Below are positions 1 to 27,028 of a stretch of DNA of 34,837 nucleotides, piece after piece. The notes beneath the pieces were generated by a model. The model saw only the letters and a program-made list of their open reading frames with translations, made no database searches and was not told the DNA's origin. Source of the DNA: Dehalococcoidia bacterium. Its GTDB lineage: Bacteria; Chloroflexota; Dehalococcoidia; DSTF01; JACRBR01. The translations under genes and the position numbers were made by a program. Every line of letters begins with the position of its first letter. Positions within the stretch are counted from its first letter, which is position 1. Location of the stretch: NCBI GenBank assembly GCA_040902535.1, contig JBBDXD010000020.1, forward strand, positions 1 through 34,837. Direction: 5' to 3'.

Positions 1-261
1 GTTTCCGTAGGGGAGAACCCCTAATTGGGGAGGTTGGAAGCTGGAGGGTAGAGGTTGCGGGGGCGGGGGATCGGAAGTCGGAGGTCAGGTGTTTTCGAGC
101 GCGCATGCGGGATGAAGAGGGTGGAGGCTAGACTCGAGAACGCTACGTCAACTCCAGCTTCCAGCTTCCAGCTTCCGACTTCCCGCCTCCGGCGATGTGC
201 TATCGTGCCGTCCGCTACGCTTCCCATAACGCCGTTTGGGCAGCCGGGCGCGGAGGTGAGA
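1..261. repeat. Intergenic region with GGAAGCTGGAG-type short repeats
   Basis: No convincing gene is seen before the sigma-factor start at 262. The stretch opens with a short perfect hairpin (TAGGGG, AGAA loop, CCCCTA) near positions 8-22, which could be the end of an upstream transcript. Copies of GGAAGCTGGAG lie near 35-46. They recur in opposite orientation as three back-to-back copies near 152-176, so the two ends could pair. The same word recurs near 5508-5520. The reading frame is open upstream of 262, but those codons run through the repeat. Confidence 0.6.
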
Positions 262-1626
262 TTGGACGACGGACTGCTGGCGAGCCGGGCCGCTGCGGGC
301 GATCTGGACAGCTTCGGCCAGTTGTACGACCGCTACTTCATCCGCGTGTACGACTTCGCGTGGCGGACGCTGGGCGACCCGGCGGAAGCGGCAGCCGCGA
401 CCGAGGACGCGTTCGCGCGGACGGTGGACGCGCTGCAACATCCCGTCAACGCGCCGACGTTCCGCTCGCTGCTCTTTTCGGCCGCCCATACGGCTGTGGT
501 CGCGCGCGCCGACGCGCCGGGCGACGACCGAAGCGGCGCCGCCCACGATGAGGCGTTCGGCGCATTCGATGTGCCCGACCCCTCGCACATCGAGAATCCG
601 GCGGCCGTGCGGGGAGATTACGAACTGGCGGCGCTCGGATGGGAAGCGTTCGCATCGCTGACGGCACGTGACTACGCGCTGCTCGACCTGCACCTGCGGC
701 AGGGCCTGAGCGTACACGAGATCGCGCACGTGCTGGGCACGAGCAAGAAGGAAGCAGAGGCCATCGTCAGGCGGATGACGAAGGCGGCATCGGAGGCGAT
801 CGACAGTTCGGTGATCGCGCGTCGCGGCACGTGCCCGCAATTGCGCGAGGCGATGTCTCCGTTCGCGATGCCGCCGCTCAACGACGAAGCGCGCGCGGCG
901 GCACAGCAGCACGTTGCAACCTGCGATGTGTGTCAGCAGGAGAAGTTGCGCCTTCCGAACATGCTCGAACTGCTGGCGGCGTTTTCAGCGATCGCCGCGC
1001 CGCATGCGCTCAAGGGGGATGTCTGGGGCAGCCTTGCGGCGCGCTGGCGCATTCCTCCGGCGTCGATGGAAGACACGCTCTTCGAAGACGAACCGTTCGG
1101 TGACATAGAGCACAGTCCGTATGGCGCGCGCGCGGACGTCGCAGGGGGCGTGCCGCCATACTATCCGCGAGAGCGCGCCTACGGGGCCGGACGCGGATCT
1201 GAATGGACGCGCAACAAGGTCATGATTTTCGCGGCGGCGGCGATCGGGCTGCTGGTATTCGCGTTCGCGGGCGGCGCCGTGATCAGCGGTGCGTTCGACG
1301 GCGGCGATGAGGACGGCGGGGCAGTGGCTGCAGACCCGACATCGGACGCGTCGCCGGGCATCTCGACGCCGGACGCGGAGACGCCGGGCGGCCCAGGGGT
1401 GGTGGTAGAGACGCCGACCGAGGATCCGAACGCCACGGCGACCGCGACAGAAGCACCGACCGAGACGCCGGCGCCCCAGGCGACCGCCACGACGCCGCCG
1501 GCGCCCCCGCCACCGCCACCTCCGCCCACGGCGATACCGGCCACGCCGACGCCGGAACCCGTCGATCCCAACCCGACGCCGACGCGCCGGGCGCTGATCC
1601 CGATTGGCACACCCACGGGCCAATAG
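262..1626 (+). CDS. ECF-like sigma factor fused to ZAS zinc-finger anti-sigma domain, TM helix and Pro/Thr-rich tail
   Basis: The TTG at 262 is chosen because GGAGGTGA (252-259) sits just upstream and the protein then begins like sigma factors (MDDGLLASRAAAGDLDSF). It has 454 residues. Region 2 spans about 5-75, with DLDSFGQLYDRY. Its later part is poorly conserved: the usual acidic DxxQ/ExF and WLxxIAxN stretches are weak. Region 4 lies around 125-175 with a helix-turn-helix (GLSVHEIAHVLGTS). After it comes a C191...H217-x3-C221-x2-C224 pattern, which matches the zinc-binding anti-sigma (ZAS/zf-HC2) signature. A hydrophobic helix follows at about 320-345, then about 110 residues rich in Thr, Pro and Ala with a run of prolines. 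The predicted order is cytoplasmic sigma, zinc finger, one membrane pass, outside tail. I infer a membrane-tethered, self-inhibited sigma factor. No separate anti-sigma gene is adjacent. Confidence 0.8.
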   Translation: MDDGLLASRAAAGDLDSFGQLYDRYFIRVYDFAWRTLGDPAEAAAATEDAFARTVDALQHPVNAPTFRSLLFSAAHTAVVARADAPGDDRSGAAHDEAFGAFDVPDPSHIENPAAVRGDYELAALGWEAFASLTARDYALLDLHLRQGLSVHEIAHVLGTSKKEAEAIVRRMTKAASEAIDSSVIARRGTCPQLREAMSPFAMPPLNDEARAAAQQHVATCDVCQQEKLRLPNMLELLAAFSAIAAPHALKGDVWGSLAARWRIPPASMEDTLFEDEPFGDIEHSPYGARADVAGGVPPYYPRERAYGAGRGSEWTRNKVMIFAAAAIGLLVFAFAGGAVISGAFDGGDEDGGAVAADPTSDASPGISTPDAETPGGPGVVVETPTEDPNATATATEAPTETPAPQATATTPPAPPPPPPPPTAIPATPTPEPVDPNPTPTRRALIPIGTPTGQ

Positions 1627-1686: not shown

Positions 1687-2874
1687 GTGAGCGCGGTCAA
1701 GGCCGTCATGCACGCAGCCGAATCGGAACGAGAGCAGCAGTCGCGTTTTTCGTGGCTGTTCGAGTTGCCTCCGCGCACCGAGCGCTCCATGCGGATGGAA
1801 GCGCTGATCGCGCGGCTGCGCCTGCTCGTGATCCTCGTCAACAGCGTCGCGCTGGCGTTCTTCCTCGACACGACGGGCATGCAGACCGACCTGGCGTGGC
1901 TGGCGGTGACGGCTGTGTGGCTGTACGGCGTGCCGGTGGCGGTGCTGCAGCCGTACCGGCGCTGGCGCGTGTTCGAGACGGGCATCATCACGGGCGTGGC
2001 GGACTCGATCGCGACGATGGCGTTCATCGCCGTGACGGGCGCGTCGGACAGCCCGTTCTTCCTGTTGTTTTATCTTTCGGTGGCGGCGATCGCGATGCGC
2101 TTCGACCTGCGGCAGGCGGTGCTTGCGAGCGCGATCTACGCCGCGGCGTACGGGATCATCTATTTCGCGACGTGGGACGCAAGTCAGGACGCGTTCGGCG
2201 TGCTGGGGTTGCGTCTCGCGTACTTGCTGTTCATCGCCGTCGGCGTGGGGCATCTTGCGCGCGAGGAGAATTATCGAGCGCGGCAGATCGATGAAATCGA
2301 GCGCCTGCACGCGGAGAACCAGAAGCTGCATCATCGTTCGGAGCGCGCGGCGCGTCTTGACCGGTTGACGGGGCTCATGAACCGGGCGGCGTTCGAGAAG
2401 GAAGCGCAGAAGGAGCTCCGGCGCGCGAAGTCAGGCGGCTACATCAGCGTGCTGTTCTGCGACATGGACCGCCTCAAGCGCATCAACGACGAACTGGGAC
2501 ACGACGCGGGCGACCGGGTGCTGCGGGCCGTCGGATCGGCGATGAAGCGGACGCTGCGGCGCGAGGACTTGATCGGGCGCTACGGCGGCGACGAGTTTGT
2601 GGTGGTGATGCCGAACGTGACGCGGGAGACGGCGTACGACCGGGCGGACCAGCTCATCGAAGCGGTGCGGTCGGTGAATGACAGCCTGACGGATGACCTG
2701 CGCGTGGGGCTGAGCGTCGGCATCTCGGTGTACCCGTTCGACGCGCAGGATTATCCGACGCTGGTGCGGCTGGCGGACCAGGCGATGTATCTGGCGAAGC
2801 GCGAAGGCGGCGATCGATCGCGGACGGCAAACGACCTGCGGTTGTTCTGGGAAGAGATACCGCATTCGGCCTGA
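1687..2874 (+). CDS. Membrane-bound diguanylate cyclase (GGDEF)
   Basis: This enzyme makes cyclic di-GMP from two GTP. The first ~190 residues hold about six hydrophobic segments and form an unrecognised membrane sensor. A charged, probably coiled-coil linker follows (about 190-220, IDEIERLHAENQKL), then a GGDEF domain to near the C-terminus. The intact GGDEF motif is at residues 300-304. An RxxD (RRED, 291-294) lies five residues before it, which is the allosteric I-site seen in product-inhibited cyclases. No EAL or HD-GYP domain is present. The start is uncertain: GTG 1687 is used, with ATG 1708 as an alternative, and neither has a strong Shine-Dalgarno. It lies 60 bp after the sigma-factor gene on the same strand and could be co-transcribed. 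Confidence 0.9.
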   Translation: MSAVKAVMHAAESEREQQSRFSWLFELPPRTERSMRMEALIARLRLLVILVNSVALAFFLDTTGMQTDLAWLAVTAVWLYGVPVAVLQPYRRWRVFETGIITGVADSIATMAFIAVTGASDSPFFLLFYLSVAAIAMRFDLRQAVLASAIYAAAYGIIYFATWDASQDAFGVLGLRLAYLLFIAVGVGHLAREENYRARQIDEIERLHAENQKLHHRSERAARLDRLTGLMNRAAFEKEAQKELRRAKSGGYISVLFCDMDRLKRINDELGHDAGDRVLRAVGSAMKRTLRREDLIGRYGGDEFVVVMPNVTRETAYDRADQLIEAVRSVNDSLTDDLRVGLSVGISVYPFDAQDYPTLVRLADQAMYLAKREGGDRSRTANDLRLFWEEIPHSA

Positions 2875-2883
2875 CGGCCGTGG

Positions 2884-2907
2884 TTGTCAGTTTTCAGTTT
2901 TCAGTTA
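2884..2907. repeat. CAGTTTT-type short-unit array
   Basis: Just downstream of the cyclase gene, TTGTCAG, TTTTCAG and TTTTCAG stand in tandem. The same family appears at 3761-3805, 8919-8953 and 29340-29372, always at a gene boundary. Confidence 0.6.
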
Positions 2908-2910
2908 CGG

Positions 2911-3186
2911 ACCTCACCCCACGGCCCCCTCTCCGTCTGGCGGAGAGGGGGAGCTTGGTCCGCCGCGCCGGTGCGTTTCACGACGAGATGCTTCGCTTCG
3001 CTCTGCATGACAGCACGGTGCGTTTCATGACGGACCTCACCCCCCGGCCCCCTCTCCGTCTGGCGGAGAGGGGGAGCTTGGTCCGGCGGGCGTGTGCGTG
3101 TCACGACGAGATGCTTTGCTTCGCTCAGCATGACGGCACGGTACGTTTCATGACGGGATGCTTCGCTTTGCTCAGCATGACGCGCG
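2911..3186. repeat. Two tandem ~123-bp intergenic repeats with hairpin cores
   Basis: Two direct copies start at 2911 and 3034. Each contains ACCTCACCCC followed by a perfect 11-bp stem (CCCCCTCTCCG, loop TCTGG, CGGAGAGGGGG) at 2925-2951 and 3048-3074. Each copy then has a GAGATGCTTCGCTTCGCTC-like stretch ending in (A)GCATGAC. A third partial copy of that last stretch runs from about 3157 to 3183. A related hairpin unit occurs 30 kb away at 33085-33125. No coding potential is evident. The arrangement resembles the dispersed palindromic intergenic repeats seen in many bacteria. Confidence 0.8.
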
Positions 3187-3190
3187 GGCG

Positions 3191-3760
3191 TCAGGCGATC
3201 AGCTCGAGGAATTCGCGGAGGATTCTTGCGGTGGCGCCCCAGATGAGGTGCTCGCGCCAGGCGTAGGAATACATCATCACGTCGCGGCCCTGGTAGTTGC
3301 GCAGCTCGGCGACGGTGTTCGCGGGGTCGCGCAGGTGATCGAGCGGCACCTCGAGGATCTCTGCGACTTCGACCTCGCTGTGGGAGAACGCGTATGGCCC
3401 GGGCACGGTGATGCGGCCGACGAAGGGACGCACGAGAAAGTTCGATACGGTGATCATCTCATCGAGCTGGCCGATCAGTTCGATGTGATCTTCGACGACG
3501 CCGATCTCTTCCCACGTCTCGCGCGTCGCGGTGTGCCGCAGGTCGCGGTCGGTGGCGTCGTGCGCGCCGCCGGGAAACGAGATCTGGCCCTTGTGGTGCT
3601 CGACGAGCTCGGAGCGACGCGTGAACAGCACGTGCAGCGATCCATCGAGTTCGTAGAGCGGGAGCAGGACGGCTGCGCGCGCCAACGATGGATCTTCGAT
3701 GTAGGCGGGGTCGTAGGCTTGCATGCGGTCGCGGATGTGGGGGAGGGAGTTCTCAGTCAT
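3191..3760 (-). CDS. Nudix hydrolase, NudL/CoA-pyrophosphatase-like
   Basis: A 189-residue protein with the Nudix signature. FPGGAHDATD is followed by RETWEEIG, and the spacing is the one seen in the CoA-pyrophosphatase branch, with Asp where most Nudix boxes have Glu. The preceding FTRRSELVEHHKGQISFPGG also fits the NudL/YeaB subfamily, which cleaves CoA and related nucleotide pyrophosphates. It is soluble and probably cytoplasmic. The ATG at 3760 has no obvious Shine-Dalgarno and lies directly next to a short-unit repeat array. It is a single-gene unit whose 3' end meets the tandem repeats at 2911-3186. The substrate is inferred from the family only. Confidence 0.88.
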   Translation of the reverse strand: MTENSLPHIRDRMQAYDPAYIEDPSLARAAVLLPLYELDGSLHVLFTRRSELVEHHKGQISFPGGAHDATDRDLRHTATRETWEEIGVVEDHIELIGQLDEMITVSNFLVRPFVGRITVPGPYAFSHSEVEVAEILEVPLDHLRDPANTVAELRNYQGRDVMMYSYAWREHLIWGATARILREFLELIA

Positions 3761-25673: not shown

Positions 25674-26270
25674 ATGCTGACGTTCATCCTGGGGGGCGCG
25701 CGCAGCGGCAAGAGCGAGCTTGCGACAAAGCTGGCCGCCGCGAGCGGGCGCCGCGTGGTCTTCATCGCGCCGATGCGCGAACTGGACGACGAGATGCGCG
25801 CGCGCGTCGGTCAGCATCGGGCTTCACGTCCCGCGGACTGGCTGACGGTCGAGGAGCCCATTGAGCTTGCCGGCGCGTTGGCAGAGCACACGCGCGGCGG
25901 CGACTTCGTAGTCGTCGACTGCGTCACCGCCTGGATCTCGAATCTCATCCTCGACGCGTTGCCGGCGGCGGATACAGCATCGGTGGAAACGATTGACGCC
26001 GTGCTGCGTGATGTGAGCGAGCGGGTCGCCGAACTCGGCGGTTGGGCTGCGCGGTTCGATGGCGACGTCGCGATCGTGTCCAACGACGTCGGTGCGGGGG
26101 TCGTGCCGGCATATGCGCTCGGGCGCGTCTTTCGTGACGCCGTGGGGGCCGCGAACAAGACGGTTGCGGCGGCGGCGGATCGCACGTTCTACGTGATGGC
26201 GGGGTTGGCGCTCGACCTGCGGGCGCTCGGCGCCCTGCCGATCGACGCGGCCGCGGGCGACGCGCCATGA
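25674..26270 (+). CDS. cobU: Adenosylcobinamide kinase / adenosylcobinamide-phosphate guanylyltransferase
   Basis: A 198-residue CobU. The P-loop is LGGARSGKSELA at the N-terminus, followed by HRASRPADWLTVEEP and VVVDCVTAWISNL, all family landmarks. It phosphorylates adenosylcobinamide and then adds GMP, which makes the substrate for CobS. It begins 22 bases after cobS, the only non-overlapping junction in the operon. A TACCCT lies seven bases before the ATG, so an internal start site is possible but weak. Confidence 0.94.
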   Translation: MLTFILGGARSGKSELATKLAAASGRRVVFIAPMRELDDEMRARVGQHRASRPADWLTVEEPIELAGALAEHTRGGDFVVVDCVTAWISNLILDALPAADTASVETIDAVLRDVSERVAELGGWAARFDGDVAIVSNDVGAGVVPAYALGRVFRDAVGAANKTVAAAADRTFYVMAGLALDLRALGALPIDAAAGDAP

Positions 26271-27028
26271 TCCCGATTTCCGACAGCGTGCGGACGCGCT
26301 CGGTGCCGTACGTGAACCTCGCGATCATCGTCCTGAACCTGCTGGTGTTCCTGTACGAGGTGTACCTGAGCCAGGATGTCGTGCGCGGGAACGTGACGGA
26401 ACTGGATCTTTTCATCTACGAATGGGGCAACGTGCCCGCGTGCACGTTCGACGAGTTGGGGCGCAACGCCGCCCTGAGCGCGGAAGGACGCGCGATCTGC
26501 GGCGAGCAGAGCCAGCCGCTGCTGACGATGATCACGGCGACGTTCATCCACGGCGGCTGGCTGCACATCGGCGGCAACATGCTGTTCCTGTGGATCTTCG
26601 GCGACAACGTCGAGGACACGATGGGGCACCTGCGCTACCTGGTGTTCTATCTGCTCTGCGGCGTGCTCGCGGGACTGGTGCATGGCGTGACGGACATCGA
26701 CAGCCTGCAACCGGCGGTCGGCGCGAGCGGAGCGATCGCGGGGGTCATGGGTGCGTATATCGTGCTGTTCCCGCGGGCGGTCGTGTACGTGATCTTCGGC
26801 TTCATCTTCATCCCGCTGCCGCTGCCGGCGTTCGTGCTGATCGGCATCTGGATCGTGATCCAGGTGTTCTTCGGCTGGGCGTCGCTCGGCGTCGATACGG
26901 CTTCGGGCGGGGTGGCGTATTTCGCGCACATCGGCGGCTTCGTGGCGGGCGCCGCGCTGGTACACGCGTTCATCCTGGGGCGTAAGCGGCCTCGACGTTC
27001 GACGGGGCGAGCCAGGGAGTACTGGTAG
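26267..27028 (+). CDS. Rhomboid-family intramembrane serine protease
   Basis: A 253-residue membrane protein with about six or seven helices. The catalytic Ser is in VGASGAIAGVMG and the catalytic His in AHIGGFVAG. The helix-2 HxxxN is seen as GGWLHIGGNMLFLW. These are all rhomboid essentials. A roughly 60-residue loop between the first helix and the core contains two Cys (PACTFDE, AICGEQ). The ATG at 26267 overlaps the cobU stop by four bases, so it is translated with the B12 operon although no link to cobalamin is known. The substrate is unknown. Confidence 0.93.
   Translation: MIPISDSVRTRSVPYVNLAIIVLNLLVFLYEVYLSQDVVRGNVTELDLFIYEWGNVPACTFDELGRNAALSAEGRAICGEQSQPLLTMITATFIHGGWLHIGGNMLFLWIFGDNVEDTMGHLRYLVFYLLCGVLAGLVHGVTDIDSLQPAVGASGAIAGVMGAYIVLFPRAVVYVIFGFIFIPLPLPAFVLIGIWIVIQVFFGWASLGVDTASGGVAYFAHIGGFVAGAALVHAFILGRKRPRRSTGRAREYW

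Follow-up and report, generated by a model that had tools for sequence, protein, structure and literature searches.

The window, by which we mean the whole stretch of 34,837 nucleotides analysed here, bears a gene for a sigma/anti-sigma/membrane fusion protein followed by a gene for a membrane diguanylate cyclase (Table 1). The fusion frame opens with TTG, a position that aligns with the ATG starts of its relatives. Sigma region 2, sigma region 4, the residues C191...H217-x3-C221-x2-C224, a hydrophobic helix and a Pro/Thr-rich tail indeed follow one another in a single polypeptide, as the preliminary description of this DNA had proposed, and the helix lies where it had been placed, at about residues 320-345. 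An intergenic tandem repeat at 2907-3181 contains a 123-nt unit twice, with 92% likeness between the copies, and then a 43-nt portion of it once more.

Table 1. Features of the fusion gene, its upstream region and its downstream neighbour (window coordinates)
Feature	Position	Strand	Basis or remark
Extended -10-like housekeeping promoter element (TGnTATnnT), TGCTATCGT	198..206	+	kept in 7/7 same-family members
Ribosome binding site GGAGGT	252..257	+	sequence; 4 nt 5' of TTG start
Sigma/anti-sigma/membrane fusion protein, 454 aa	262..1626	+	open reading frame; relatives in almost all genomes of the order
Degenerate sigma region 2, aa 1-90	262..531	+	sigma2 HMM 42, against 55-90 in intact members
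A45, replacing near-invariant D of region 2.2	394..396	+	D in 97% of canonical and intact fused proteins
-10 pocket L70, A74, T77, A81, all lost	469..504	+	correspond to SigH W81, I85, N88, N92
Sigma region 4, aa 120-186	619..819	+	recognition-helix N-[A/G]-Y replaced
Zinc anti-sigma (ZAS) domain, aa 187-262	820..1047	+	zf-HC2 match, alignment, AlphaFold2 model
ZAS ligands C191, H217, C221, C224	832-834, 910-912, 922-924, 931-933	+	alignment of relatives
Transmembrane helix, aa ~320-345, N-terminus inside	1219..1296	+	helix survey of members
Pro/Thr-rich extracellular stalk, aa 346-454	1297..1623	+	without folded domain by Pfam
Membrane diguanylate cyclase (GGDEF)	1687..2874	+	GGDEF 152 bits; directly 3' of fusion gene

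Both sigma and zinc-finger models match the protein in HMM searches, as had been anticipated, but none of these matches reaches a curated cut-off. The Pfam scores were 12.7 of 24 bits for Sigma70_r2, 12.4 of 24.1 bits for Sigma70_r4 and 16.3 against a cut-off of 22.2 bits for zf-HC2, the last with an alignment spanning the whole model; among NCBIfam sigma models the best E value, 3e-11, was still below cut-off, and sigma70-ECF scored 33.1 of 42.9. Relatives were therefore needed to decide the identity of the protein. A search of the genome contigs with the window protein as a single sequence returned no relative, and an alignment-based profile later found them. One intact relative (L007) is 49% identical to the window protein, and its own scores are 47.7 bits for Sigma70_r2 (cut-off 24) and 24.5 of 25.7 for Sigma70_r4_2. 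Because this relative passes Sigma70_r2, and because the alignment of the relatives runs unbroken across all domains, the window protein can be assigned as a sigma/ZAS fusion.

The window gene belongs to a family of fused ECF sigma factors in Chloroflexota, in which the sigma part is joined to a class I ZAS, a membrane helix and an extracellular stalk. When 60 related genomes were searched, full-length relatives were found with 41-47% identity in its own family and about 30-40% further out. Profile matches occur in all 18 genomes of the order, and fused members in 16 of them, the exceptions being one genome with a partial match (G013) and one with standalone ECFs only (G002). Strong matches also occur in other parts of the class and of the phylum, so that the domain order sought in related genomes turned out to be widespread in Chloroflexota; the lower-ranking contigs of the profile search were, in every case checked, standalone ECFs without a fused zinc site. 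All four zinc ligands are invariant, both in the 19 sequences of the alignment and in a larger comparison of 45 intact with 17 degenerate members (100% in each set). A membrane helix follows the ZAS domain in 67 of 69 members, the other two being cut short in the available sequence. The residues around it show an inside-positive bias, with 2.1 K/R per 15 residues on the inner and 0.7 on the outer side. Of the outcomes named beforehand as grounds for rejecting the preliminary description, none was observed. The tails differ among members, from plain Pro/Thr stalks to cohesin, weak BACON and Ig-like matches and a PD40 propeller; in the stalk of the window protein no Pfam domain was found, carbohydrate-binding modules included.

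Fusion of both halves in one polypeptide had been presented as unusual, a view that is not supported, since the architecture is already known. The same order has been published for ECF48, ECF52 and ECF53 of Actinobacteria, with proteolytic release proposed (PMC5826349, PMC8999054). Like the window protein, ECF52 (SCO4117 of Streptomyces coelicolor) combines sigma, zinc finger, transmembrane segment and Pro-rich outside part in one protein; in contrast, it is described as exclusive to Actinobacteria and as carrying a carbohydrate-binding domain, whereas the window protein belongs to Chloroflexota, lacks such a domain and has a degenerate sigma region 2. Our family profile finds fused proteins of Streptomyces among its best matches in Actinobacteria, and in a quick tree these fall among fused proteins. 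That tree, which has weak deep support and does not include SCO4117, places two actinobacterial fused clades apart from the clade of the window protein. Another single polypeptide is IutY (ECF243) of Pseudomonas putida, which is released by Prc and RseP (PMC5411451). It resembles the window protein in joining a sigma factor and a membrane anti-sigma factor in one chain, and differs in serving iron cell-surface signalling with a working sigma; in the text consulted, no zinc ZAS site is described for it.

The AlphaFold2 model of residues 1-270 (58 aligned sequences; pLDDT 89.9, pTM 0.88), whose input alignment was rich in intact members, contains a sigma2-sigma4 fold matching SigW, CnrH and RpoE, and the model of intact L007 has the same top structural relatives. 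In VIA-align, sigma2 and sigma4 superpose jointly on SigW of the SigW-RsiW complex (Z 14.9, 2.9 A, 151 residues), and the model also fits CnrH of CnrH-CnrY (Z 13.9), while RNA polymerase-bound SigH can be superposed on both domains only at about 27 A. Since the model fits SigW of the RsiW complex and not RNA polymerase-bound SigH, the predicted resting state is a closed, anti-sigma-inhibited arrangement within one chain. The likeness to SigW-RsiW of Bacillus and to CnrH-CnrY concerns the arrangement of the bound sigma domains; in those systems, sigma and anti-sigma are separate proteins. A putative inhibition of the sigma part by the ZAS domain of the window protein is supported by this predicted arrangement only. 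A different possibility is that the ZAS domain acts in trans and captures a standalone ECF sigma, the dead sigma part being a placeholder. No part of the protein is conserved as well as the ZAS site, and several standalone ECFs are encoded in the window's genome. However, the high-confidence model has the protein's own sigma domains in the anti-sigma-bound arrangement, as though the ZAS were occupied in cis, and the standalone ECFs on contigs C21 and C22 have adjacent zinc-finger matches of their own. We regard action in trans as very unlikely.

The preliminary description had also suggested that region 2 is unusually diverged and that sigma activity might have been lost, and this is strongly supported by the pocket residues, the promoter motif and the absence of a target. 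Against a sigma2 profile built from 32 standalone ECFs, intact fused members score 55-90 bits and the window protein 42, with others as low as 7 and below zero. At positions conserved both in standalone ECFs (41 sequences) and in intact fused members (45 sequences), the window protein carries the changes D45 to A, W70 to L, I74 to A, N77 to T and D/N81 to A; in the reference proteins W70 is conserved in 100% (standalone and intact fused alike) and D45 in 97%. Q48 of region 2.2 is likewise lost. F51 and much of sigma4 are retained, and sigma2 still folds in the model. By spacing and sequence, positions 70, 74, 77 and 81 correspond to W81, I85, N88 and N92 of Mycobacterium tuberculosis SigH, which form or adjoin the -10 pocket and of which W81 and I85, when replaced by alanine, give severe transcription defects (PMC6411747).

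A separate problem is which promoters the intact members recognise. The motif GTAAGAW-N15/16-KGTC is common to intact L006, L007, L012, L013 and the f36 group, where it lies 52-164 nt before the starts. It occurs upstream of 17 intact members at p <= 0.005 and, at that level, of no degenerate member; a genome search with a spacer one base too long, which can serve as a control for spacing, gave no hit at the promoter of any fused gene. It covaries with the N-[A/G]-Y recognition helix of region 4, and the pocket positions that read L, A and T in the window protein are W, I and N/H in all 17 motif-bearing relatives. Genome-wide searches found a site before the fused gene and in few other places. 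Many of the latter are followed, after about 20-90 nt, by a gene for a secreted or membrane protein, in many cases one with a Pro/Thr or acidic stalk (G002, G003, G005, G008, G010, G298 and G313). Sites were also found upstream of a fused paralogue (G008) and of a standalone ECF gene (G002), and for some, such as L226, L231, L235 and L252, a surface-protein target is not evident. On these grounds, the motif is probably a self-recognised promoter of these intact members, and its placement would be the pattern expected of an autoregulated ECF sigma factor.

Among five surface proteins preceded by the motif, Pfam gave a convincing domain in none of four, the fifth matching DUF3558. Two motif-preceded surface protein genes adjoin a fused gene (L258 1567-2286 in G008, L262 882-1478 in G010), and their products end in an LPxAG-like motif, a transmembrane helix and a basic tail, resembling sorted surface proteins. 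The site before the standalone ECF gene in G002 (L261, contig C368, minus strand, 3698-3725) hints at a possible sigma cascade. A standalone ECF closely similar to that of L261 is encoded in the window's genome (C8:22834), which has no motif match.

Indeed, the genome-wide search of the window's own genome gave 0 motif sites at zero or one mismatch, and within the window no site was found even at two mismatches. Upstream of the fusion gene, TGCTATCGT is the sole promoter-like element left; elements of this type lie 52-118 nt before the start in the family and are found in 0.8% of shuffled upstream regions. Many intact groups also lack the GTAAGA motif, and its absence alone is therefore no proof of loss of function. 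Nor does the window genome encode the surface protein that is the target in its intact sisters. This surface protein, METN.../METT..., is a motif target in G002, G003 and G005 and is missing from G000, G001, G004, G006 and G007; in G002, whose assembly is incomplete, motif and targets are present and the fused gene is absent. In the tree, the window gene groups with L008, L009 and L010 (98/96), with intact L006 and L007 as sister. Pocket, promoter and target were lost together in its own family, as one event on the tree and not several.

One could argue that the window protein is still a working sigma, released from the membrane and reading a different promoter through an altered -10 pocket. 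In the model, sigma2 and sigma4 are both well folded, ECF sigma2 sequences are variable, and basic residues of region 4 are partly retained. What makes this unlikely is that four pocket positions changed together, two of them to alanine as in the crippling or weakening SigH mutants, that D45 and Q48 of region 2.2 were lost as well, and that the sole upstream promoter-like element is of the housekeeping type. The evidence points instead to a former sigma factor which, most likely, no longer directs transcription.

Such decay does not seem to be confined to the window copy. The degenerate label changes at least four times on well-supported branches of a tree whose input also included the label columns, and region 2 decay appears to have arisen at least four times in the fused family. 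In two close degenerate pairs dN/dS is 0.13-0.18 for sigma2 and 0.06-0.10 for sigma4, values close to those of intact pairs; another pair, at greater distance, gave 0.44 and 0.25, respectively. These values describe degenerate sister pairs, and the window gene, which has no close relative, stands outside them. The close decayed copies are under purifying selection, and degenerate relatives are retained throughout several genera. These observations bear on the view that the window gene is simply decaying and has no present function, for which one may cite the disappearance of sigma2, promoter and target and the long branch of the gene (0.73). Yet its 454-residue frame is intact, a ribosome binding site and the conserved housekeeping promoter element are in place, zinc ligands and transmembrane helix are retained, and its degenerate relatives are kept by selection, and thus we find simple decay improbable. 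Rather, as region 2 has decayed repeatedly while purifying selection persists in close decayed pairs, the window protein has probably been retained for some membrane function other than that of a sigma factor.

What this function may be is suggested, at most, by the neighbouring diguanylate cyclase gene. In four other genomes of the family, five with the window's, a copy with 60-66% identity lies beside the fusion gene and on its strand, and this adjacency is independent of whether sigma2 is intact or degenerate.

As to activation, it had been supposed that release would need proteolysis or a change in the zinc site rather than dissociation. Our results favour this: since sigma and ZAS are one membrane-anchored polypeptide, working relatives would need one of these two routes, and proteolysis has been proposed in the literature for ECF52 and ECF53 and shown for IutY. 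A rhomboid protease gene had been pointed out in the window as well; the gene (26267-27028) is real (Pfam 117 bits), but no link to the fusion protein was found. It adjoins CobS and CobU genes. Several M50 site-2-type protease matches are also present in the window genome.

Working members probably rest at the membrane in a closed, self-inhibited state, and an outside event at the stalk would lead to intramembrane proteolysis, which would free the sigma part. The freed sigma may then act on its own gene and on a few genes of stalked surface proteins through GTAAGAW-N15/16-KGTC promoters. The window copy retains the zinc site, the anchor, the stalk and the predicted closed fold and has lost the -10 melting pocket, self-promoter and target; it probably persists as a membrane sensor or scaffold, possibly together with the adjacent diguanylate cyclase. 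Computation supplies the architecture, the conservation, the promoter pattern, the co-loss and the predicted closed fold; proteolytic release, loss of activity (read from the residues) and the new role are inferred. For the family at large we suggest, tentatively and with slightly less than even confidence, that Chloroflexota fusions repeatedly became non-transcriptional, the pocket decaying while inhibitor, anchor and stalk remained under selection in a sensor or scaffold.

What seems to be new is that the architecture is widespread in Chloroflexota, with a candidate promoter and regulon. In the literature searched, coverage of which was incomplete, we found no description of such a Chloroflexota branch, nor of a sigma part retired repeatedly while the other parts are kept; a search for a degenerate sigma region 2 in an anti-sigma fusion likewise gave nothing, most subscription papers lying outside its coverage. 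The findings extend a fused architecture described as actinobacterial to a broad phylum. With a candidate promoter and regulon for intact members (the fused gene itself and stalked surface proteins), the release mechanism can be tested. Decayed members, the window gene among them, would offer natural examples of separation of function and would reveal why inhibitor, anchor and stalk are kept without a working sigma. If this is confirmed, it would be a mistake in many Dehalococcoidia to annotate such genes as sigma factors.
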